Shown in pieces: positions 22,561-36,410 of a stretch of 64,000 bases of DNA. The position numbers and the translations under genes are program-made. Origin of the DNA: Natronorubrum daqingense (GTDB lineage: Archaea > Halobacteriota > Halobacteria > Halobacteriales > Natrialbaceae); assembly GCF_001971705.1 (NCBI RefSeq), contig NZ_CP019327.1, positions 3,286,001-3,350,000 on the forward strand, read 5' to 3'. The stretch's first letter is position 1. Every line of letters starts with the position of its first letter. The notes under the pieces were generated by a model, which was given only the letters and a program-made list of their open reading frames with translations, had not been told where the DNA came from and made no database searches.

Positions 22561-23661
22561 TCAGCCTCGCGGTGCGTCGATTGCCGGCAGCGTGAACGTA
22601 AACGTCGAACCATCGCCGGGTTCGGACTCGACCCAGATCCGGCCGCCGTGGCGTTCGACGATGCGTTTACAGAGTGCCAGTCCGATCCCGGTCCCCTCGT
22701 ATTCGTCGTGACTGTGGAGGCGCTGGAAGACCTCGAAAATCCGTTCTTGGTCGTCGGGGTCGATGCCGATTCCGTCGTCGATCACCGATATTTGCCACTC
22801 GGCCCCCGATCGTTCGGCTTCGACGGCGACCGTCGGTTGATCGTCGCCGCTGTACTCGATCGCATTCGACAGCAGGTTCTGAAACAACTGCCGCAACTGG
22901 TCGGGATCTCCCTCGACGCGAGGGAGCGAATCGCTCGTGATCGTCGCCTCGTGTTCGTTGATCTTCATCTGCAAGTCGGCGCGAACGTCCTCGAGTACGT
23001 CGTTCAGGTCCGTCTCCGTCAACTGTCCTCCTTCGGTGTCGATCCGTGAGTACTCGAGTAATCCGTCGATCATGCCTCGCATTCGGTCTGCGCCGTCGAT
23101 AGCGAATTCGATGAACTCGTCGACCTCTTCGTCGAGTTCGTTTCCGTATCGCTGCTCGATAAGCTGGAGGTAACTCGAGATCATCCGAAGCGGCTCTTGG
23201 AGGTCGTGTGAGGCCGCGTAGGCGAATTGCTCGAGGGACTTGTTCGACTCTTTGAGTTGGGTGATGTAGTGGCGAAGCTCGAGCGACTGTTGTCGTCGCG
23301 TGAGTAGGGTATCCAGTCGCCGAAAGAGGACGGGTGGGTCGATCGGTGCGTCGACGATTTCGTTGACGAGCAGCGGTGGCTCGCGCTCTCCCGGGTTCGC
23401 CAATGTGAGCTGACGCGAACTGTCTTCCCGGCGAATCACGACCACGGGACAGAACACGGGGTAGTTCTGTTCGACTCGCTCGAGGAGGTCTGAGTGGTGG
23501 TCGGGGAACGTGTGATCGTCGACGAGATAGCAATCGGCGTCCGTGACCGATTGGTCGGTGATGACGTCGTAGTGCCCGGAGAGGAGTTCGCGGACTGCAG
23601 CGCGGTTTCCGTCCTCACCGACGAGCAACTGAATCGTTTGTTGGCGGTCACTCGAGTTCAT
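22561..23661 (-). CDS. Sensor histidine kinase with divergent receiver-like N-terminus
   Basis: This 366-aa cytosolic kinase has a receiver-like first 120 residues (CYLVDDHTFPDH, where the phospho-acceptor motif would be) and then a short coiled linker. HisKA with the H-box FAYAASHDLQEPLRM (His at about residue 152) follows. HATPase_c then has N-box NLLSNAIEY, G1 DDGIGI, F-box 'RIFEVFQRLH' and G2 GTGIGLAL. There are no membrane helices. It probably relays signals from a membrane or soluble sensor. The KaiC-like gene ends 40 nt upstream on the same strand, so the two may form a signalling pair. Confidence 0.92.
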   Translation of the reverse strand: MNSSDRQQTIQLLVGEDGNRAAVRELLSGHYDVITDQSVTDADCYLVDDHTFPDHHSDLLERVEQNYPVFCPVVVIRREDSSRQLTLANPGEREPPLLVNEIVDAPIDPPVLFRRLDTLLTRRQQSLELRHYITQLKESNKSLEQFAYAASHDLQEPLRMISSYLQLIEQRYGNELDEEVDEFIEFAIDGADRMRGMIDGLLEYSRIDTEGGQLTETDLNDVLEDVRADLQMKINEHEATITSDSLPRVEGDPDQLRQLFQNLLSNAIEYSGDDQPTVAVEAERSGAEWQISVIDDGIGIDPDDQERIFEVFQRLHSHDEYEGTGIGLALCKRIVERHGGRIWVESEPGDGSTFTFTLPAIDAPRG

Positions 23662-23700
23662 ACGTGTTGGGCGGCATACTGGGGGAATGTCGGAGTCGAT

Positions 23701-25173
23701 TCATTCGCGTTGGAACTGATCTGGCGATTCGCTGGCTCGTGGTGACCCTTGGAGGATTCCGTAGAGGCCGGTCAGCGGTTCGCCGACGTGGATTCCGTTG
23801 GGGGTGATCGAGAACTCGCGCAGACTCTGTTCGAAGCCGCCGGTTCGCTTTTTCAGTACGCCGACGACTTTCTGGAGGCTCCCGTCCATCTCGACGTAAC
23901 TGAGGAACACGAGGTTGTCTGCGACGTAGCTGATGTTCCCACTCGTCGCCCGGGAAATACCCGTGATTTCGGAAATTTCGTTCGTAATGACGACGGTTAC
24001 GCCGCGACTTTTGAGATAACGCGTCAGTGCGAGGAGTTTCCGCAAGAGCTCGTTCTTGTCGCCTTGGAGCGTGATGGTGTAGCCGTCGATCCCGTCGATC
24101 AGGACGATGTCCGTCTCCTGCTGGCTGACTTGCTGTTTGACTATGTGTGCGAACTCTTCGGCCGAGATGGCGAGTGGCTCGACTTCGGTGACCTCGACCA
24201 TCCCATCATCTCGAAGCGACGTGACGGGCATATCGATCGATTCCGAGCGGTATTCGTACGTTTGGTGGTTCTCCTCGAAGAGATACACCGCCGATCGGAG
24301 GTCGTTCTCGGCTGCCTGACACAGCAACTGCGTTGCCATCGACGTCTTCCCCGTACCGGAGGGCCCGCTGATGAACGTCACGGTTTGCTCGTCGAATCCG
24401 CCGCCGATGAGTTCGTCGAGCTCGTCGATGCCAAACCGAAGTTGGTCCGGATCGAAGGGATGATCGTATTGTTCTGGAACCAGCGTCGGGAAGACTTGGA
24501 TACCCTCGCCTCGAATTTCCATCCCGTGGTCGCCTTCCATCTGGCCGAGTGCCCGGTGTTTCGCGACCTGAATGCGCCGGCCACCGTCCCCTCGAGTAAC
24601 CCTGACGATCCCGTCACTCAACGAGCGGACCTCTGTATCGTACTCCTGTTTTTGTGACGACGTCGCGGTGGCGATGACGGTGACCTCCCGTTGTTTGAGA
24701 AACCGCATGAATGCGAGGATGCGCTTTCGAAACTGGTGGTCGTTCGCCTCGACGTAGCGCAGTTGCGTAATCGGATCGACGACCACTCGATCGGGATCAA
24801 TTTCTCGGATCGCCTCGTGAATATCTTGGGTGTACCGGTCGCGTTCGATGTCACTCGGATTGACCAGGTCGTACGAGTAGTCCTCGACGAAGAAGTCCGA
24901 GTCCGGGCCTAAATCGAGAAACTCAGCGTCGGTGATATCGATACCGAGCGCTTCGCCGTTCGCCAGGATTTCCTCGTGGGACTCCTCACCGTGGATGAAC
25001 AACACCGTCTCGTCGTTCTCGAGGCCCTTCTCGAGAAAGTGCATACCGAGGAGCGTCTTTCCGGTCCCCGGTTGTCCCTGAATGAGATACAGTCGACCGG
25101 TGACGAGCCCGCCGCGGAGTATCGTGTCTAATCCGTCGACTCCGCTGCTTATCGAGGAAACGCGTGCTCCCAT
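23701..25173 (-). CDS. KaiC-like double-domain ATPase
   Basis: This 490-aa protein has two RecA/KaiC domains, each with a Walker A: GQPGTGKT (about residues 33-40) and GPSGTGKT (about 270-277). Matching catalytic glutamates and Walker B strands follow (DRVVVDPITQL; DIVLIDGIDGY). The N-terminus (SISSGVDGLDTILRGGLV) is typical of haloarchaeal KaiC-like regulators, which lack the KaiA/KaiB clock partners. Here it precedes a histidine kinase gene, an arrangement that suggests an ATP- or redox-sensing signalling role. I took the ATG at 25173 rather than the GTG 12 nt upstream. Confidence 0.92.
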   Translation of the reverse strand: MGARVSSISSGVDGLDTILRGGLVTGRLYLIQGQPGTGKTLLGMHFLEKGLENDETVLFIHGEESHEEILANGEALGIDITDAEFLDLGPDSDFFVEDYSYDLVNPSDIERDRYTQDIHEAIREIDPDRVVVDPITQLRYVEANDHQFRKRILAFMRFLKQREVTVIATATSSQKQEYDTEVRSLSDGIVRVTRGDGGRRIQVAKHRALGQMEGDHGMEIRGEGIQVFPTLVPEQYDHPFDPDQLRFGIDELDELIGGGFDEQTVTFISGPSGTGKTSMATQLLCQAAENDLRSAVYLFEENHQTYEYRSESIDMPVTSLRDDGMVEVTEVEPLAISAEEFAHIVKQQVSQQETDIVLIDGIDGYTITLQGDKNELLRKLLALTRYLKSRGVTVVITNEISEITGISRATSGNISYVADNLVFLSYVEMDGSLQKVVGVLKKRTGGFEQSLREFSITPNGIHVGEPLTGLYGILQGSPRASESPDQFQRE

Positions 25174-25299
25174 GTCCGTCCACACGTAATTGACGGGTAT
25201 GAATCAACCTATCGCTAGCGAGACTGATAGCTGTCTCGGCGTTCACTGCGACGAGGTTAGTCCGTGTCTATGGGCCGTCGACGGTATCTCGATTAGCTG

Positions 25300-27577: not shown

Positions 27578-27711
27578 GGGTTGACGTCACCGGGAGACAA
27601 GTTGGTCGTTTCGCTCGAGGTAGATTCGTGGGACACAGAAAAATCGTGCCCAGGTGATTTGAACGCCGCCTCGCGCGCGCCGAGATCGTCGACACGATCG
27701 TAGAAGGTCAT
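27574..27711 (-). CDS. Possible 45-aa small protein coupled to the PHP gene
   Basis: An open frame of 45 codons starts at an ATG whose three bases lie within the left arm of a palindromic element, and ends with ATGA overlapping the PHP start. Its translation begins MTFYDRVDDLGAREAAFK and ends in a Ser/Thr-rich tail (SHESTSSETTNLSPGDVNP). Composition is haloarchaeal, not shadow-like. No domain is recognised. It may be a leader peptide, a small regulator, or the remnant of a longer gene broken at the nearby island edge. Confidence 0.35.
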   Translation of the reverse strand: MTFYDRVDDLGAREAAFKSPGHDFSVSHESTSSETTNLSPGDVNP

Positions 27712-27740
27712 TATCTGGGTAATGATTATCGAGATAATGA
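27708..27740. promoter_or_regulatory. Overlapping palindromes with TNATTATC half sites
   Basis: The perfect inverted repeat TCATTATCT (27708-27716) and AGATAATGA (27732-27740) brackets a second dyad, ATTATC-GA-GATAAT (27725-27738). This gives three related half sites (TCATTATC, TGATTATC, GATAATGA). Such multi-site AT-rich dyads resemble operators of metal-responsive or multimeric repressors. It sits at the start of the small ORF and the PHP gene and near the left edge of the accessory island. No binder is known. Confidence 0.5.
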
Positions 27741-27962
27741 CTTATCCTTCCGCCGGATTCTCGAGTGCGATCTCGTTCTATCGCGGTGCAGGACGAGAAT
27801 TCCGGCCCTTGAGGTCGTGGTTGGTGACAGTGACTCTGTTGAAATCCTCGATAGACGACAAGAATTGGCTGCTGAATATAGAGGGTGGATTTGTCACCAA
27901 ACGAGAGCTCGTCGAGTAGCTGACCGGCCTACTGGGTCAGCGTGGCGATCACGATGACGGGT
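27712..27962. other. Left boundary region of the accessory island, no gene
   Basis: Beyond the palindromes the 220 bp up to the methyltransferase stop hold no convincing gene. A 65-codon plus-strand frame from 27722 has no recognisable feature. The base composition shifts here from CTCGAG-rich backbone to the different usage of the methyltransferase gene. The 11-mer AATGATTATCG at 27721-27731 recurs at 36244-36254, beyond the other edge of the island. Confidence 0.45.
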
Positions 27963-29207
27963 TTAGTCGCTCCACTCCGGCGTTACCTCCATCTGTGGTC
28001 CGGGATCTCCCTTCCGTAACACGAGAATTCGATCGATTAACTCTTGCTCGTTATCTTCTTCCTCCTCATCCCACCGGAGATTGTTCAATTGCGTGTAGTA
28101 GCGCTTGTCCACGTTGTAATCGTCCTCAATTACCCGCTCAACCTCGAAACCAAACTCACTCGCCTCCGCAGCAATCATCCGAGCTGGATAGACTACCTTC
28201 GCGCCACCCTGCCGATGTTTACGGACGTCACCAATAACGATGATAGCTCGCGAATCGGATTTTAACACACGATCCAGTTCCGCGATTACATCGGTCATGA
28301 ACGACCGAAACAACTCTACCTTGGATGTCTGATTGAGCGAGTCTTGCTCCGCCGACCGATCCTCGTCAAGCCACCACAGCCGAAGCCAATTATTCCATGA
28401 ATAGTCTAACATATGCATGTACGGCGGTGAGGTCAATACAAAATCAGCTGTATCATCCTCAAATGGCAGCGACGTCGCATCAGCTTGCTCAACTCGGGTG
28501 TTTCCGGAAGGGTATTGCGCACCAACGAGTCGATTAAACTTGTCACTGGCCTTCTCATCAACTGACTTATATATCTCTTCAAGACCGTGTTCTTCCTTGT
28601 AATCCTTAACATAACTCGCACTCCCAGAGAACGTATCGCGAGTCTGAATTGAAAGAAATAGCTCCGATGGGCCGTGAAGAATGCCACATATCAGCGCTTT
28701 CAGAAACCTGCCATCACGACTGCTGTCCTCTTTGAGAACGGCTCGGTATTGCCGCAGTTCTTGAAGTGTGTCGTCGTGAAAAAAGATTGCTGCATCCTCA
28801 TCGACGGGTGGTAATGTCTTTGGGTTGATATCATCTGCGTCTCGCTTGACCCGTTTCAGTGCCGCATCGAATTCGTCTTCAGTCAAAGGATGCGTCTTTG
28901 CCCCAGTGAGCGTACACGCATAGCTGAACACATCACTGGCCAGAACATCGCGATCAAGAAGCGCAGCCTCAAGAGCAGTCGTGCCGCCGCCTGAAAACGG
29001 ATCAAGGACCGTCATCTCGGGGTCAGTATATTGTTGAAGCAGATAGTTCGCAAGCGCGGGTGGAAACCCACCAACGTAGGGAGCAAGCTTGTGTAATTCG
29101 TTCCCCCACGCACGAGGTGCCTCCCGCCAAGAATGTGGGAGCGTCTCTGTGCCGATGATCTCCGCCGATGATAGCGCGTCTTCATACGCGCTATAATCCT
29201 GTGACAT
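27963..29207 (-). CDS. DNA adenine/cytosine-amino methyltransferase of the accessory island
   Basis: This 414-aa protein has the SAM-binding motif DPFSGGGTT (about residues 69-77) and the amino-methyltransferase catalytic motif TSPPY (about residue 258). Between these lies a long insert. Motif I before SPPY is the gamma/alpha-like order, and the SPPY form suits N4-cytosine or N6-adenine methylation of DNA. The end has 'SRAIIVIGDVRKHRQGGAKVV' (split SRAIIVIGDVRKH, RQGGAKVV). I chose the ATG at 29207 because it follows a TATA-like TTTATTAA (minus strand, 29229-29236) by about 25 nt; a TTG start upstream is less likely. It is divergent from the HerA-type gene and probably marks self DNA for that cassette. 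Confidence 0.85.
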   Translation of the reverse strand: MSQDYSAYEDALSSAEIIGTETLPHSWREAPRAWGNELHKLAPYVGGFPPALANYLLQQYTDPEMTVLDPFSGGGTTALEAALLDRDVLASDVFSYACTLTGAKTHPLTEDEFDAALKRVKRDADDINPKTLPPVDEDAAIFFHDDTLQELRQYRAVLKEDSSRDGRFLKALICGILHGPSELFLSIQTRDTFSGSASYVKDYKEEHGLEEIYKSVDEKASDKFNRLVGAQYPSGNTRVEQADATSLPFEDDTADFVLTSPPYMHMLDYSWNNWLRLWWLDEDRSAEQDSLNQTSKVELFRSFMTDVIAELDRVLKSDSRAIIVIGDVRKHRQGGAKVVYPARMIAAEASEFGFEVERVIEDDYNVDKRYYTQLNNLRWDEEEEDNEQELIDRILVLRKGDPGPQMEVTPEWSD

Positions 29208-29228
29208 AGTAAACCGCAGTCGCGATGG

Positions 29229-29275
29229 CTTAATAAATCCGTTCCTCTCAGTAATCGACAAAGTATTATATGTCG
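29229..29275. promoter_or_regulatory. Divergent promoters of methyltransferase and HerA genes
   Basis: On the minus strand a TTTATTAA box (29229-29236) lies about 25 nt from the methyltransferase ATG. On the plus strand aagtattata (29261-29270) lies about 27-36 nt from the HerA ATG at 29297. The latter is exactly enclosed by a perfect 5-bp inverted repeat, CGACA (29256-29260) and TGTCG (29271-29275), so a dimer could cover the TATA box. Both arms therefore share an 89-bp control region. Confidence 0.5.
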
Positions 29276-29296
29276 GTGAATGTGTAAGTCATATTG

Positions 29297-31459
29297 ATGT
29301 GCTCGTCACTCGAAGATGATCTTTCTCCACGGACAGATATGCGGATCGGTGATCTTCTCGTGGAATCTCACCATGTTGGTGGTGTGTTCTCGCCCGGTCA
29401 TGAACACTGTAAGGTTCTCACCAACGACAAGTGGACGCAGGATGCAGGCGGGCTCCCACGCCACTCGCTATTAATCGCGCGCCCGCTTCTGGAAGGGGAT
29501 GAAATTGTCTCCGAGGAGGATGTCCACACCGGCCACAGGCTTCCCGAGAACGATCCTGGTTACGCACCGCCGGATCCCACCGACACAGACGCGACTCACG
29601 CCTTGCTTCTGCGCGTGAGCGACACGACCGATATCCCACAGGAGGGGCGCCTACAAACAAATCGCTATGATGCTATCCAGGAAGCAATCACGGGTGAGGA
29701 AGGTGGGACAGCCTCACCCGAGGACTTCGTCGATGTCCTCACACGCCGACAAATTCAATACTCTGGTGTCGAGGCAAAGATTCTGGGCACCTTCTACTAC
29801 GACACGAACGAAGACGACGAACAGCGGCTAAGCTTCAGTAGTGATGTCCAGACGTTCTTTTCTGCCGGACATTATGTCGTTCACAAGCCTGATCACGCGG
29901 CGCTGCAGTGGATCGCGAGCTATCCTACGACGACAGACACAACACCGGTCAAACTCGGCGATGTGCAGTATACGACGACCGATATCTGGGGCGACGGTGC
30001 TTCCGCCGGAATGTACTTCGACGTCAAAGAATTCATCGGCGCGAAAACAGCCGTCTTTGGGATGACACGAAAGGGCAAGTCGAACACGATGAAGATCATC
30101 GCTGGCGCGATCGAGGCTCACGATGAGTCGATCGGCCAGCTAATCTTTGATCCTAGTGGTGAATACGCATACGTCAATGATCAAGACGAGGAATGTGCGC
30201 TCGGCGAACTGCACACGCAAGATGATAACGGTGCTCCCGAGGCGATCTCAACCGTTTACAAGTTTGCTGCTCAAGAGGATGAGACAGATCGGTATAAGCC
30301 ACTGCGAACGAACCTTCTTGCGCGCTCCAATCTTGACGTAGTGAAAAATTACGTTCACATGGAACTTGGCAGTGACGAGGCCACCTATGCGGAAAACTTC
30401 GTGACGGTTTCCAACAATGTCCCATCTGAGGAAGAACTTGAAGATATGGAGTGGGGACAGAAGACCCGTGCTGAGTGGCTTCGAAGTGCATACTATGCTG
30501 TTATTTCTCGTTCGATTGGTACAGAAAAGCTGCCTGACGACTTCGATCCCTTCTGGATTGGGGTCAACGATAGCGTACTGAGGGGGGTAAACGAACATTC
30601 ACATTTGGACTTCAACAAGGCTGAGAGCGGTAAGGTCCGACTTGGGAAAGCCGGCGGGGAAAATACGCTTGTTGAGTTTTGGAGCACAGTTGCGACGAAC
30701 ACGAAGGACATCAACGATGCGCACGAGGAGGATCGTGATTGGGTTAACGACGATTTGGACAGTGTTCTTGAGATGTTCCGAACAGCCGGCTCCCAAAGCG
30801 GTTTCGGCAAACTCCGAAACCTACAAGACTACCACAACCCCGCTCGCGATGTGGATGTCGCCAGGGAGATATACAGCCGACTGACAGACGGCGAGCTGGT
30901 CATTGTGGACATCTCAAACGGAATGGAGGAGGTAATTACGGCCGAAAAAGAGCGCCTCGTCAGCTACATCCTCAACCAGTCGATGGAGCGTTTTCGCTCG
31001 ACAGATGAGGACGAACTTCCGAAGATTCAGGTCTACCTCGAGGAAGCACACCAGCATTTCGATGAGTACGGCCGCGGCGACGGTGAGATGAACCCCTTCG
31101 TGACGCTTGCGAAGGAGGGCGCGAAATTCCAGATTGGTATGGTCTACGCCACCCAAGAGGTCACGAGCGTAGACCCCCGTGTCCGGGCAAATACAGCTAA
31201 TTGGATTATCACACACATCAACAGTGAGAAAGAGATCAATGAGCTTGGCAAGTACTATAATTTCGCTGACTTCGCGAATTCGATCCGGAATGTCGAAACT
31301 GTGGGGTACTCTCGCGTGAAGACGTACCTAGGCGAATACATTGTTCCGGTACAGATCTCGCTGTTCGATACTGACTGGGTCAAAGACAACACGCCGTTTG
31401 GTGTCAAGAAAGATGATGGGTTCATTGTAGAGCCAAGTCCGTCGAGGCAAGCTGACTGA
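29297..31459 (+). CDS. HerA-type hexameric DNA translocase ATPase
   Basis: This 720-aa protein (ATG at 29297; a TTG precedes it) has a HerA/FtsK-type ATPase. Walker A GMTRKGKS starts at residue 255, and Walker B VYLEEAH with the catalytic Glu at residue 583 is followed by H. 'MVYATQEVTSVDPRVRANT' carries the sensor and arginine-type residues, and 'NWIITHINSEKEINELGKY' comes late. The first 200 residues form a HAS-barrel-like region. HerA proteins pump DNA and work with NurA nucleases in end resection; related ATPases act in defence. The next gene starts within the stop (TGATG), so it is coupled to a NurA-like protein. Low CTCGAG content marks it as foreign to the backbone. Confidence 0.9.
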   Translation: MCSSLEDDLSPRTDMRIGDLLVESHHVGGVFSPGHEHCKVLTNDKWTQDAGGLPRHSLLIARPLLEGDEIVSEEDVHTGHRLPENDPGYAPPDPTDTDATHALLLRVSDTTDIPQEGRLQTNRYDAIQEAITGEEGGTASPEDFVDVLTRRQIQYSGVEAKILGTFYYDTNEDDEQRLSFSSDVQTFFSAGHYVVHKPDHAALQWIASYPTTTDTTPVKLGDVQYTTTDIWGDGASAGMYFDVKEFIGAKTAVFGMTRKGKSNTMKIIAGAIEAHDESIGQLIFDPSGEYAYVNDQDEECALGELHTQDDNGAPEAISTVYKFAAQEDETDRYKPLRTNLLARSNLDVVKNYVHMELGSDEATYAENFVTVSNNVPSEEELEDMEWGQKTRAEWLRSAYYAVISRSIGTEKLPDDFDPFWIGVNDSVLRGVNEHSHLDFNKAESGKVRLGKAGGENTLVEFWSTVATNTKDINDAHEEDRDWVNDDLDSVLEMFRTAGSQSGFGKLRNLQDYHNPARDVDVAREIYSRLTDGELVIVDISNGMEEVITAEKERLVSYILNQSMERFRSTDEDELPKIQVYLEEAHQHFDEYGRGDGEMNPFVTLAKEGAKFQIGMVYATQEVTSVDPRVRANTANWIITHINSEKEINELGKYYNFADFANSIRNVETVGYSRVKTYLGEYIVPVQISLFDTDWVKDNTPFGVKKDDGFIVEPSPSRQAD

Positions 31460-32844
31460 TGCCTCTCCCGAGCGAACCTTCCAACAGTATCGGTCATGTG
31501 GGACTCAGCCGCGACAGCGAACTCGCCCCCGAGCTGGGAGAGTTCGACTATAATCCGCCGTCGCCAGCAGAAGCCAACGACTTCGACGACATTCCGGCCG
31601 AGGAACTGCCGGGTGCCGACGATCTCGGTACACCGATCGAAACGGTCTACAGCGTCGATGGCTCCCGGGTCGAGGTCACGATCGGGGACGAACGGCGCAA
31701 CAAGCGAGTGGGGTTCATCGACATTGCACTTGTTGAGCTTGATCTCGCGATCCTTGACGCACAGGCCAAGCATGCGTTTGTCTCGCCATCGAAAGTAGCG
31801 AACCTCGGCGAGACACATCACGTTCGGATGGTGCTTCCGAGTACGAACACACTCCTCAACAGTGAGTCAACCCACGAGAGCTGGCGGCAGATGACCTACC
31901 GGAACTTTCGGTCCAAGGAAGTGTTCGATACAACGCTGTTCACACTGTATCACGATCTCCTGAAGCGGAAGGGGCGACTTGATTCGCATGGGCGGCTCCG
32001 GTTGGAGTACTGTCCAGCCCCCGACTGCGAACACCAACAACTGTTCGTGAACTCTTCAACACCCGACAAATGCCCGGAATGTGGGGTTACGACGTATCCG
32101 ACAGATGCGCTTCGGGTTCACGAGCGCGTGAGCGGGTCACAGTCGAACGAGGCAGCCCTCAACGTGTTGATGGGTATTATTGAGCATGTCGTCTTGCTCG
32201 GTGCCGCACACGATATTTGGATGACCGAGCCCGCCAGGCTTGAGCGGACGGCGTTCATCAAAGACGGACCCCTTGCACAGTTTGACACCGGGGCATGGAT
32301 TCACGAGCCGATTCACAACCGAATCGGCGAGTTCAAACAGTATCTTCGCGCCGACGAACGTAGTCCGCTAGTCTACACCGGTATCCACAAGACCGGTGAC
32401 TTCGCAGCGTATGCTGAGTCTGTCCGCGACTATCTTGATGGGCCCACAGTATTGCCATTTTCAAACGATGATATCTACGAGTACGTGATTGCCGGTGACC
32501 GTAACAAAGACTACGCATACAAGACGTACTACGGTAAGAATTTTCTCTACAAATCCGGCAAAGGAACCGGGACCGGGCACGTGCTTGCATTCTTAACCCC
32601 TCGACAGTACGAGGAAGGCGATTTAGCCACTAAAGAGGGAGATATTGTCCAAGATGTAGACGCCTACGATGAACTCGCCCGGACGATTAGCGTGCTTGAA
32701 CGCATCCTGACGATTCAGTACAGGGATGGGCTGATTCCACTCGTCCTCGCTCACGAAGCGGCCTCTATCCCTGAGGCACTAGGGCGAATCGTCCTCGGGA
32801 CACTTGCTGAAGCAATGTCCGAAGCTTCAGAGGAGGATACATGA
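31459..32844 (+). CDS. NurA-like nuclease with internal zinc knuckle
   Basis: This 461-aa protein shows the NurA start signature VYSVDGSR (D67-G68-S69) ahead of beta-rich residues, with 'SPLVYTGIHKTGDF' in the middle and 'GLIPLVLAHEAASIP' at the C-terminus. These correspond to the manganese-binding and HxA-like motifs of NurA 5'-3' exonucleases. A cysteine quartet, C185-x4-C190 and C205-x2-C208, forms a probable zinc knuckle inserted in the middle, unlike classic NurA. The start overlaps the HerA stop (TGATG), so the pair is likely to form a translocase-nuclease machine. The assignment is by motif and context, without alignment. Confidence 0.65.
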   Translation: MPLPSEPSNSIGHVGLSRDSELAPELGEFDYNPPSPAEANDFDDIPAEELPGADDLGTPIETVYSVDGSRVEVTIGDERRNKRVGFIDIALVELDLAILDAQAKHAFVSPSKVANLGETHHVRMVLPSTNTLLNSESTHESWRQMTYRNFRSKEVFDTTLFTLYHDLLKRKGRLDSHGRLRLEYCPAPDCEHQQLFVNSSTPDKCPECGVTTYPTDALRVHERVSGSQSNEAALNVLMGIIEHVVLLGAAHDIWMTEPARLERTAFIKDGPLAQFDTGAWIHEPIHNRIGEFKQYLRADERSPLVYTGIHKTGDFAAYAESVRDYLDGPTVLPFSNDDIYEYVIAGDRNKDYAYKTYYGKNFLYKSGKGTGTGHVLAFLTPRQYEEGDLATKEGDIVQDVDAYDELARTISVLERILTIQYRDGLIPLVLAHEAASIPEALGRIVLGTLAEAMSEASEEDT

Positions 32845-32922
32845 GAAGAAATATGTCCATCGCGACCGAACTGCGTGTAAGAACGGTGACACCGCTGATA
32901 TCGGTGTCCCACTTCTGTTTCC

Positions 32923-34137
32923 ATGAATAACGATCCAAATGACCCCCAGTCGCAGGGTGGCTCCTTAACAGAGCAGGAAGTCCTTCAACGGATTGACCAG
33001 GGGCTTAGGGATGCTGTTGAGGGAAACGGGCTGAATTGGCAGATGGGAACCCGTGTCAAACGGCAAAAGTACACGGAGGTCGCCCTTCGACACTACCTCG
33101 GTCCGATTCCGGCTGATGGCAGCCAGACGACGTCGCCGATCACACGCAGCTGGTTCAAGTACGGCCCAACGGCCGTGATGGCGCCGTCAGGATCGTATGC
33201 TGGGACCGGCACTCAGTCTCCAGCCGAGCCACAAACTCCGACCAACGATGGGCAACAGTCGACAAGCGATTCACAGACAGATGCCGATGTCGACTCACCG
33301 ACCGAGGAGCCCCCCAATCAGTGTATAGATAATCATCCTGCTATCGAGGAGACGGTGCTTGGAGAGCTAACGGAAAATGACTATCTACAATTTTTCCTCG
33401 ATCAAGATTTTACGCCGCCATTGACCGAGCAGTATTGGAACACCGACGACTACGCATTTCTGCTGGAATTCTATGACGAATATGCGCCCCCACCTCTCAA
33501 AGACATCTATCTGGCGAACGTGAGGCTACGGATTACGCTTCGGGATGCAGGAGCGACTACGTTCGACATGATCGACAATCGACCGCAGATTCTCACTGGT
33601 GAGCCCGAGGTAGCGGAACGATGGAAAAGTACATCATTTGAAGCACAGGCCGGGCGAGCTGCAGTTAGTCTCCGGCTGGCGCTTATGCGCGCTGAGTTCA
33701 TTCCTTCGGCCGTCACCGGGATCGTTCACGGTTTCACTGATTTGATTGAAGATGTTCTCCTAGCAGTGGAGGCGAATGATGCGGCGGACATCCCTTTGAC
33801 TGCCCCAGAGGCGCTCAACACACTCGACGAAGTGTACGACGCGGTAATCTGGCAGTACGTTTCTCACTATATCTCGCAGCTGACGGCGATTGGGCCCGAC
33901 GCCGAGAAGCTGACTCGGATTTCACAAGAACGGCTCACAGCTCTCGAAGAAGAAGCACCTGCCAAGACACGCGAACTTCAGGAACAATTCGCACAAGATG
34001 GGCTTTTGCCGGATGTCCCTACATACCAATCGGCCGATCAGGACAAAGAGATTCGACTTTCTAACTCGCTCACTGATGCCGCGCTCCGTCAGCAGCGGAT
34101 AGAGACGGCTGAGGAGGAATCGGATAATGAGCAGTGA
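32923..34137 (+). CDS. Unrecognised 404-aa island protein
   Basis: I do not recognise this family. The N-terminal 65 residues form a helical unit with 'VALRHYLGPIPADGS' and 'SPITRSWFKYGP', followed by a Gln/Ser/Thr/Pro-rich linker (about residues 90-130). An acidic helical C-terminal domain ends in a coiled-coil-like region (RISQERLTALEEEAPAKTRE). There are no membrane segments or nuclease motifs. The stop overlaps the PIN gene by 11 nt, so the two are coupled. It lies 78 nt after the NurA-like stop. The modular linker suggests an adaptor or sensor for the cassette; this is inference. Confidence 0.8.
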   Translation: MNNDPNDPQSQGGSLTEQEVLQRIDQGLRDAVEGNGLNWQMGTRVKRQKYTEVALRHYLGPIPADGSQTTSPITRSWFKYGPTAVMAPSGSYAGTGTQSPAEPQTPTNDGQQSTSDSQTDADVDSPTEEPPNQCIDNHPAIEETVLGELTENDYLQFFLDQDFTPPLTEQYWNTDDYAFLLEFYDEYAPPPLKDIYLANVRLRITLRDAGATTFDMIDNRPQILTGEPEVAERWKSTSFEAQAGRAAVSLRLALMRAEFIPSAVTGIVHGFTDLIEDVLLAVEANDAADIPLTAPEALNTLDEVYDAVIWQYVSHYISQLTAIGPDAEKLTRISQERLTALEEEAPAKTRELQEQFAQDGLLPDVPTYQSADQDKEIRLSNSLTDAALRQQRIETAEEESDNEQ

Positions 34138-34882
34138 AGCGTACCCTGGGGCAGGAGATGATGTCTTCGTCGATACCTCTGTCCTTATCGATTACACGAA
34201 AGAGACCCTCAACCCCAGCGAGAAACTGCGCCGGCGCGAGGCAGCCGCTGAAGTTCTCGTCTCTTGCCTCCCGCAGCTCACACTCTCAGTAAGTCAGAAG
34301 GTTGCCGGTGAGTATACCGGCGTCGCCGAACGTCGTCAAAGTGGTATCGACGATGCTACTGCCCATGCTTCTACCGACCCACTCAGTACCTTTGACTTCA
34401 CAACGTGTAAGGATCTCAATAATAGGGATGCAGACGTGTTGAATTCCTTTCTGGGTGAACTCCTTGACCAGTATAGTGACGAGGAAGCGCTCCGCCGTCT
34501 GAACAAGCGCCAGCGTGCGTTTCGTCGAGCTAAACGAAAGCTCTTTGAGGACCCCTCACCGCGTGTGTCTGTCCACATTGACAGCTACACTCTTCGCGTG
34601 TTCACAGATCTGGCGGGCTACATGGATAACGATCACGACCGCAAAATACTCGCACACGCTGTCGACTGGTTTGCCGACGAGTTCGGAAATTGCTTCATCA
34701 CCTCTGATGAGGAAGACTTCAAATTTAATGACTCAGAGGGTCGAATTTTTTCCTTCGAAGAGCGAGTAAACAAGATTGCACAAGCCCACTGTGACTGCAA
34801 CGGGTCTCTTTATATCAGTAGCACTGAGAACTTCCTCTCGGAGTACATCCAGCAGATGCAACTAGCGGAAACGGAGTCATAG
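34127..34882 (+). CDS. PIN-domain nuclease of the accessory island
   Basis: This 251-aa protein begins with DDVFVDTSVLIDYTK (Asp16 as the first metal ligand), the PIN signature. Further acidic residues lie in 'LNNRDADVLNSFLGELLD' and 'MDNDHDRKILAHAVDWF', and the last ligand site is 'CFITSDEEDFKF'. It is longer than VapC toxins (about 130 aa) because of a helical insertion. PIN proteins cut RNA or flap DNA. It overlaps the preceding gene by 11 nt and closes the island operon, so it is a likely effector. Confidence 0.8.
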   Translation: MSSEAYPGAGDDVFVDTSVLIDYTKETLNPSEKLRRREAAAEVLVSCLPQLTLSVSQKVAGEYTGVAERRQSGIDDATAHASTDPLSTFDFTTCKDLNNRDADVLNSFLGELLDQYSDEEALRRLNKRQRAFRRAKRKLFEDPSPRVSVHIDSYTLRVFTDLAGYMDNDHDRKILAHAVDWFADEFGNCFITSDEEDFKFNDSEGRIFSFEERVNKIAQAHCDCNGSLYISSTENFLSEYIQQMQLAETES

Positions 34883-34976
34883 GCTTCCCTGGTCCGTGTT
34901 CACTCGCAACAACCGGGTGAATTAAGGGAACCTGCACAGTGACTATTCTCGAATCAGCGATAGGAAGGCTGTATAA

Positions 34977-35105
34977 ACTGGTGGAAATCACGGCGGTAAA
35001 TCTTGTGAGCAAGCCGCCCTGAAACAGTGGTTTGGAGAGACAATTGTGAAGGATCAACTGGCGTCTGGTCAATCATTCAACATCCACTTTGACCGATTCG
35101 CGCCC
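34977..35105 (+). pseudogene. Gene remnant interrupted by the IS element (5' part)
   Basis: An open stretch without a start codon reads EQAALKQWFGETIVKDQLAS and onward to FNIHFDRFAP at 35105, where the target-site repeat CGCGCCC is reached. If the IS and one repeat copy are removed, the frame continues at 36049 as RIQHTG and stops at 36069. The stop TGA is also the first base triplet of a strong hairpin. This suggests the 3' end of a lost gene split by the insertion. I do not recognise the protein. Confidence 0.35.
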
Positions 35106-36041
35106 TGGGCCTTGTTTAGACGCGCGAAATCATCCGAGTTAGGCCGTGAGCGATTGTTCGATGTTTCTGACAGCGGCTTTAAGGACGAGTTCTCGGAACT
35201 GTCCAAACCACGTTCTTGCCTTAAGCGTTGAACCGAATCGCTTGCGTAACGCGAAAAATATCGATTCTGCGATAGACCGTCGATGATAGGTTTTATCATC
35301 AATCCGAGCATTGTGTGCGGCGTCGAGCGAGTAGAACTCACGATGCTTGATCACCGGTCTAATACCCTCGCTTCGCAGCATCTGCCGGAGTTTATCCCAA
35401 TCAAACCCTTTGTCAGCGACGATAGTTTCCACGGTTCTGAGGTTTCTTTTCAGGACTTGCCACGCAATCTGCGTGGCATGTGGTAGGTTCATTGAGCAGT
35501 GTACATCGAGAATAGCTCGCGTAGAACAGTCTACGAGAATAGTGGTTTTGACCGACTCAAACGTCCCTTTGACGCGCTTTGCGTAGTTATGGCTAGACGA
35601 GCGATGAGCGATGCTAGTTGAGTCGATTGCTTGTACCTCTCCGGTATCGAATAGTTCCGCCGACAGCTGCAACAGCATCCGCCAGACGGGCATCTTGAGA
35701 TCTTGTTTTCGAGCACAAACGGTGGTGAAGTCCGGCAACTCATCCGGTGAAAGGCCGAGTTTGGCGACAATAGCAGGCATTTCTCGAAGAACGTCTAGCA
35801 ACCGTCGGTAAGAGTGATCGAGGTATTCTCGAAGACCATGGATCGCTACGATCACCCAATCAGCGTAGCCATCTTTTCCTTTACTGAGAGGTTCTTTCGA
35901 ACCGCTTCCGACAGCTTTTTGAGACAATTCGACGCATCGTTCGGTGAAGCGGGCCAGTTTGGAGTACACATCTAACTGTGCTCGCTTCATTTCCTAGAAT
36001 TCCCGACATAGAGGCAATATTACTAGCGTCTAAACACAGCC
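35106..36041 (-). mobile_element. IS5-family insertion sequence, about 0.94 kb
   Basis: A single transposase gene (35139-35990) is bracketed by imperfect terminal inverted repeats, GGGCCTTGTTTAGACGC (35107-35123) and, on the other end, the complement of GGGCTGTGTTTAGACGC (36026-36042), 15 of 17 identical. The 7-mer CGCGCCC flanks both ends (35099-35105 and 36042-36048) as a probable target duplication. Ends are uncertain by 1-2 bp because one repeat base is shared with the terminal repeat. The element appears complete. Confidence 0.8.
35139..35990 (-). CDS. IS5-family transposase
   Basis: This 283-aa DDE transposase has the catalytic residues in VQAIDSTSI (first Asp), VADKGFDWDKL (second Asp) and the Y-x2-R-x3-E-like 'YHRRSIAESIFFALRKRFGS' (split YHRRSIAE, SIFFALRKRFG), with Glu as the third. 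Length and layout match haloarchaeal IS5/ISH-type enzymes. The N-terminus has a helical DNA-binding region. All three catalytic positions are present, and the reading frame is intact, so it may be active. It sits at the right border of the HerA/methyltransferase island. Confidence 0.93.
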   Translation of the reverse strand: MKRAQLDVYSKLARFTERCVELSQKAVGSGSKEPLSKGKDGYADWVIVAIHGLREYLDHSYRRLLDVLREMPAIVAKLGLSPDELPDFTTVCARKQDLKMPVWRMLLQLSAELFDTGEVQAIDSTSIAHRSSSHNYAKRVKGTFESVKTTILVDCSTRAILDVHCSMNLPHATQIAWQVLKRNLRTVETIVADKGFDWDKLRQMLRSEGIRPVIKHREFYSLDAAHNARIDDKTYHRRSIAESIFFALRKRFGSTLKARTWFGQFRELVLKAAVRNIEQSLTA

Positions 36042-36048
36042 CGCGCCC

Positions 36049-36069
36049 CGTATTCAGCACACCGGCTGA
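36049..36069 (+). pseudogene. Gene remnant interrupted by the IS element (3' part)
   Basis: This is the continuation of the frame that reaches 35105 on the other side of the IS: codons for RIQHTG, then TGA at 36067-36069. The junction requires precise loss of the IS and one copy of CGCGCCC. Confidence 0.3.
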
Positions 36070-36094
36070 AACCTATCACCGAGTGAGGGTTTCA
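36067..36094. terminator. Near-perfect 28-bp hairpin next to the IS
   Basis: Arms TGAAACC (36067-36073) and GGTTTCA (36088-36094) enclose a nested TCAC (36076-36079) and GTGA (36083-36086) pair. The result is an almost continuous stem with a 3-nt loop. It begins at the stop codon of the split gene remnant, so a transcription terminator is the simplest reading. There is no T tract. Its ends (GTTGAAACC, complement strand) also resemble half of a CRISPR-type repeat, but only one copy exists. Confidence 0.4.
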
Positions 36095-36410
36095 ACATGG
36101 CCTTGACAATGTACCAGCACAATTCAAACGTCTCTGGCTAGGTGAATCATATTGGTGTCCCTCGAATGTGACTCGCGACCCCGTGCGCCGGGTCGTCGGT
36201 GACGTTCACGTCGTCGATACGCTCCATTCTCGTTCGAGCAAGAATGATTATCGTCGACTGTAAGTGTCAACGATCGACTCGAGCGAGCGTCACACATCAT
36301 TGCCGTCTCCGTCTGTGATTATTCCACACCAGTTCCGCTGGACATCTTATCAATGGCTTGCACATGAGCGCGCCGCGTTAAACAAAGGTACGCTGGTACG
36401 ACAGTCGTGC
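36095..36410. other. Space before the superoxide dismutase gene
   Basis: No gene is visible. The stretch contains the 11-mer AATGATTATCG (36244-36254) that is also at 27721-27731, and a TATA-like gcgttaaacaaa (36376-36387) about 25-35 nt upstream of the sodA-type ATG, the probable promoter. Confidence 0.4.

Follow-up and report, generated by a model that had tools for sequence, protein, structure and literature searches.

Gene content and organization of the cassette

The window, a stretch of 64,000 nucleotides of Natronorubrum daqingense DNA, contains five open reading frames that an earlier note had described as a candidate defence cassette. The genes, and the larger segments that hold them, are listed below with their positions in the window.

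27963-29261, - strand: N6/N4-type DNA methyltransferase (MTase); PF01555, 1.2e-18; motif I (DPFSGGGT) ahead of motif IV (TSPPY)
29294-31459, + strand: HerA/TdpA-like DNA-translocase ATPase, presumably hexameric; PF01935, 3.2e-10; Walker A GMTRKGKSN; TdpA is the best solved relative
31459-32844, + strand: NurA/TdpB-like RNase H-fold nuclease, from PF09376 matches of its relatives and the predicted structure
32923-34137, + strand: ORF4, 404 aa, predicted all-helical PIN partner, from its pairing with PIN; poor structure model
34127-34882, + strand: PIN-domain nuclease, predicted RNase effector; PF01850 in the family
27869-35107, no strand: cassette transferred as a unit; limits of the 92% DNA identity to a genome of another genus (G071/L012), flanks unrelated
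27637-36265, no strand: insertion holding the cassette and an IS5 copy; replaced by 5 bp in a genome of the same genus (G296)

The ORF positions confirmed both the coordinates of the five genes and the arrangement previously noted. Base 31459 is common to the HerA and NurA-like reading frames (TGATG), the frames of ORF4 and the PIN gene overlap by 11 nt, and the MTase gene is divergent from the other four. The identities proposed for the MTase and HerA were likewise borne out by their Pfam matches. Translation is likely to start at an ATG at about position 29207 for the MTase and at ATG 29297 or 29339 for HerA, so that a divergent promoter region remains between the two genes. The GC content of the cassette is 51-54%, as compared to mostly 60-65% in the surroundings, and this low value, together with the gene-for-gene conservation in other genomes, argues that the five-gene block is not a product of chance. 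The cassette consists of two modules, an MTase-HerA-NurA core and an accessory ORF4-PIN pair.

Transfer between genera and the insertion site

The DNA identity of 92% to G071, which belongs to another genus of the same family, extends over exactly positions 27869 to 35107, with none outside these limits in the 19-kb stretch compared. This alignment indicates that all five genes travelled together between genera. The genome G296, from the same genus as the window, has about five bases where the window has positions 27637 to 36265, showing that the cassette sits in an insertion. The place of insertion is variable, since a different 1.5-kb segment was found near the same junction in G296 and different gene joins were found there in G297 and G189.

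An IS5-family transposase gene (35139-35990; NF033579, 1.9e-60) immediately follows the cassette; it lies within the insertion and outside the transferred block. The variable spot (27637-36265; homologous junction in L098-L100 and L123) has a PHP-domain gene on one side and a superoxide dismutase/AAA region on the other. Elsewhere in the window, at positions 22561-25185, a KaiC-like double-ATPase gene is followed by a histidine kinase gene, as read from the translations only.

Similarity of HerA and NurA to TdpA and TdpB

In a Pfam search, the NurA-like protein of the window displayed no significant match, and none to PF09376. The NurA assignment made earlier is nevertheless supported by its relatives, of which 5 of the 10 aligned match PF09376, and by an AlphaFold model (pLDDT 87.5) that resembles the NurA nucleases in the PDB. 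The family alignment showed two invariant acidic residues, D67 (VDGS) and D269 (KDGPL), and an additional four-cysteine zinc-ribbon insert (C185...C208). The housekeeping HerA-NurA of the genome is located outside the window (C1:2239706-2243402), with a canonical NurA gene at C1:2239706 (PF09376, 67.6 bits) and a DUF87 gene nearby, and the window pair is separate from it.

The Tdp system consists of TdpA, TdpB and TdpC, where TdpA is a HerA-like translocase, TdpB is a NurA-like nuclease and the mark is phosphorothioate. TdpAB reportedly degrades phosphorothioate-free DNA and is inhibited by phosphorothioate-marked DNA. The Tdp structures used for comparison were PDB 8wet, 8wfd and 8y1k. When the HerA profile was compared with the PDB, TdpA was the best of nine matches (E 1.3e-27), followed by the next at 3.3e-17, with archaeal HerA at 1.7e-12. 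Similarly, the NurA model aligned to TdpB (8wfd) with a Z score of 20.6 over 320 residues (Foldseek E 2.5e-8 for 8wfd_G), as compared to 15.7 and 13.3 for the housekeeping NurA of Sulfolobus and T. kodakarensis, respectively. The Pfam matches of the five proteins included no sulfur-transfer domain that would point to TdpC, the phosphorothioate-installing enzyme, and had a PF01555 methylase instead. Thus, with HerA and NurA nearest to TdpA and TdpB, the core appears to be a methylation-based equivalent of Tdp.

The MTase-HerA-NurA core in other genomes

An alignment-based profile query against one genome per species identified 101 NurA relatives, 80 of which were fetched; a single-sequence query with the window NurA over the same genome contigs recovered no relatives. 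The 80 fetched proteins span 22 named phyla, and the core is thus present in at least 22 phyla. HerA directly precedes NurA, with a median gap of 2 nt. According to profile counts, a methylase is encoded within 1.5 kb of HerA and NurA in 70 of 81 non-duplicate loci, and the methylase density near the pair is 0.19 per kb versus 0.013 per kb in the farther flanks of the same loci, a 14-fold difference. The 11 exceptions include one haloarchaeal locus, where the methylase lies just past ORF4-PIN, and three loci cut by contig ends. In six cyanobacterial loci and a Deinococcales MAG, the profiles detected no methylase next to HerA-NurA, and these loci weigh against the restriction-modification account proposed below.

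Five of these cyanobacterial loci (L008, L009, L010, L031 and L035) have a conserved 82-aa XRE gene before HerA and no methylase nearby, and L087 is the sixth cyanobacterial locus. The size and place of the XRE regulator are like those of the controller genes of restriction-modification systems.

HerA-NurA is partnered by at least three classes of methylases, on either side of the pair. Two are of the N6/N4 type, one of about 325 aa with an early TSPPF and a late motif I, and the other of about 375-430 aa with a late TSPPY; the third consists of D12 proteins. The class switches at least four times on the NurA tree, which is a quick tree with long branches flagged. A constant HerA-NurA pair with exchanged methylases is what a pairing of modification and restriction predicts. 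In one group of loci (L070, L079, L081 and L083), a conserved gene of 559-587 aa lies opposite NurA and precedes a gene for a D12-like methylase; its product is possibly a further component.

The linkage bears on a different explanation, according to which HerA-NurA is a duplicated end-resection repair pair that a methylase and a toxin-antitoxin pair adjoin through chance insertion into an island. HerA-NurA is a known end-processing complex of archaea, and the island does contain an IS5 copy. However, most relatives across the 22 phyla have a linked methylase, which is swapped in kind, and HerA and NurA are nearer to TdpA/TdpB than to the housekeeping pair that the genome has elsewhere. The window-type NurA is also patchy: a search of 293 genomes from the order gave 5 clear matches. 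We therefore consider a repair pair with chance neighbors highly improbable.

The core was also found in a temperate Vibrio phage (PQ189371.1, locus L148), where HerA-NurA and a D12-type methylase are located between the integrase and the excisionase, with genes annotated as RelE-like, Shedu and Gabija nearby. Viral contigs scanned with NurA and with ORF4 yielded no relatives. Comparison of 86 flanking proteins with PADLOC returned scattered defence hits (mad3, AriA, Septu PtuA, AbiLi and other methylases), which, lacking a control set, do not count as proof.

The ORF4-PIN accessory module

The PIN assignment was upheld at the level of the family, where 9 of 18 relatives match PF01850 (best 6.8e-5; weak in the window protein itself) and the acidic residues D16, E62, D171 and D194 are invariant. 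ORF4 is predicted to be all-helical from a poor structure model (pLDDT 52), which showed no match with E < 0.001 in the PDB, and the protein has no match in Pfam. A weak likeness to the K-x-Q-K-x-x-Y-x-A motif of Panacea antitoxins is suggestive only of kinship, as the hhalign alignments are limited to the motif region and have a probability of 2-14%.

Relatives of ORF4 were identified in 60 of 391 haloarchaeal genomes, and in each of the 20 loci read, ORF4 is followed by a member of the PIN family described above. The complete set of five genes was found in six haloarchaeal genomes from four families (G000, G071, G026, G041, G315 and G380), with the methylase gene divergent, co-directional upstream or convergent downstream. 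The earlier note had named a lack of co-occurrence in other genomes as the result that would speak against a system, and the opposite was observed. Loci of G054, Halorarius, Halorubrum and Deferribacter carry the trio but not ORF4-PIN; the contig from Haloquadratum stops within the methylase gene.

In six loci that lack the trio (L126-L131), ORF4-PIN has three neighboring genes whose sizes and order are constant. In L126, these encode helicase, MZB and PLD proteins with full-length matches to the PADLOC models of the DISARM proteins DrmA, DrmB and DrmC. The near-identical gene lengths suggest that the six loci may represent few acquisitions or a single one. We regard ORF4-PIN as a candidate effector that is accessory to archaeal DISARM. 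In L126 and L130, ORF4-PIN is located after a gene of 765 and 737 aa, respectively (GmrSD-Schlafen in L126), behind drmA-drmB-drmC. In L135, L136 and L137, it lies beside helicase genes of 1357-1424 aa, and those of L135 and L136 resemble the DpdJ/BrxH models of PADLOC, which gives the pair additional defence contexts.

Alternatively, all five genes could be obligate parts of a single restriction machine that does not work without ORF4-PIN, where PIN might, for example, cut flaps or DNA together with NurA. Such a system would fit the position of ORF4-PIN directly behind NurA in the six haloarchaeal genomes and the near-identical transfer of all five genes. It is at odds with the trio that stands without ORF4-PIN in the haloarchaeal loci L007, L015 and L020 and in every bacterial locus examined, and with the ORF4-PIN pairs that lack the trio, both next to DISARM and in other places, and we regard it as unlikely. 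The data suggest instead that the trio is the core and ORF4-PIN a portable accessory module. Hence, of the single five-gene system that was first proposed, the co-occurrence of the genes has held, but the MTase-HerA-NurA core is widespread and ORF4-PIN forms an accessory pair of its own, which docks to DISARM as well.

Proposed function of the cassette

The gene identities at family level, the linkage, the swapping of methylases, the horizontal transfer and the kinship to TdpA and TdpB in both fold and sequence were all observed. Based on these, we propose that the cassette is a mobile restriction-modification-like defence system in which the methylase marks self, HerA-NurA degrades unmarked DNA and ORF4-PIN serves as a back-up, and we find this account likely. 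The methylase would modify specific sites in the host DNA, which would thereby be marked as self. A TdpA-like HerA, presumably a hexamer, and a TdpB-like NurA, presumably a dimer, would load on DNA and translocate, and NurA would degrade the DNA. Self DNA could be spared if the motor is stalled or blocked at methylated sites, in the way that phosphorothioate acts in Tdp, or if loading requires an unmethylated site; no feature directing NurA to unmethylated DNA was visible in the sequences. In the haloarchaeal form, we infer a direction of control in which ORF4 would restrain or sense, and PIN, with RNA as its putative target, would cut as a second line once the core is overcome. The earlier idea of a methylase that marks self, a HerA/NurA pair that degrades unmarked DNA and PIN as an extra effector agrees well with the comparative evidence from these sequences.

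A further explanation is that the methylase-nuclease pair is a selfish addiction module kept by post-segregational killing rather than for host defence. Pairs resembling restriction-modification systems on plasmids and on a phage often act in this way, and the cassette is mobile. Addiction is, however, compatible with restriction and not opposed to it. The Shedu- and Gabija-like neighbors that the core has in the phage, and the association of ORF4-PIN with DISARM, point to defence, and we regard addiction as unlikely. The function of the cassette is very probably defensive.

In more general terms, HerA-NurA may be a restriction engine with an exchangeable self-mark, set by N4/N6 methylases of three or more classes or by the phosphorothioate of Tdp. 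It would then represent an unrecognized, phylum-crossing class of translocating restriction systems, with a portable haloarchaeal ORF4-PIN back-up that also serves DISARM. We would give this broader hypothesis roughly even chances. If true, it would offer a directly testable account of the many genes annotated as "DNA repair NurA" beside bacterial methylases, a single motor-nuclease engine would read several kinds of DNA marks, and a portable RNase add-on would be common to MTase-HerA-NurA and DISARM. Haloarchaea have both genetics and viruses, which makes the cassette open to plating tests.

Comparison with known systems

The housekeeping HerA-NurA, for example of T. kodakarensis, has the same two folds as the cassette pair, and we know of no methylase partner for it. 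The T. kodakarensis study itself proposes an antiviral role for the complex (PMC12977600). A HerA-class translocase with an effector is also found in HerA-SIR2, HerA-DUF4297, the HerA/FtsK capture systems (PMC10853773) and BRC (PMC12839542), from which the cassette differs by its NurA effector and its self-marking methylase; the texts of both papers do not mention NurA. HerA-SIR2 and HerA-DUF4297 were specifically rejected as identities, as the SIR2 or DUF4297 partner is absent and the partner is NurA-like. The PIN back-up effectors noted in BREX loci (PMC12839542) share the theme of a back-up RNase with ORF4-PIN.

The ORF4-PIN of DISARM-linked and other haloarchaeal loci is the same gene pair, which in the cassette is docked to MTase-HerA-NurA. 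The cassette itself is not DISARM, since drmA, drmB and drmC are absent. MADS (mad1-8) was also ruled out, as there is just a weak similarity of the MTase and HerA to mad2 and mad8. PADLOC 2.0 has no model that matches the window NurA family. As compared to type II restriction-modification, a methylase is present, whereas the nuclease is the predicted translocating HerA-NurA.

Like the core of the cassette, Tdp combines a modification enzyme with a HerA-NurA motor nuclease. The mark is phosphorothioate in Tdp and a predicted base methylation in the cassette, set by an N6/N4 methylase or, in some relatives, a D12 enzyme. Moreover, the cassette NurA exceeds the solved TdpB chain by about 100 residues and contains the zinc-ribbon insert, and the haloarchaeal cassette adds ORF4-PIN, unlike Tdp. 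The earlier note had also proposed the system as a candidate undescribed one. No paper on MTase-HerA-NurA was found among open PMC papers, and an earlier mention elsewhere is possible, but with Tdp as a close known relative the core is not wholly undescribed in kind. Rather, the core appears to be a methylation-based variant of a Tdp-like restriction engine, apparently undescribed and spread across phyla.
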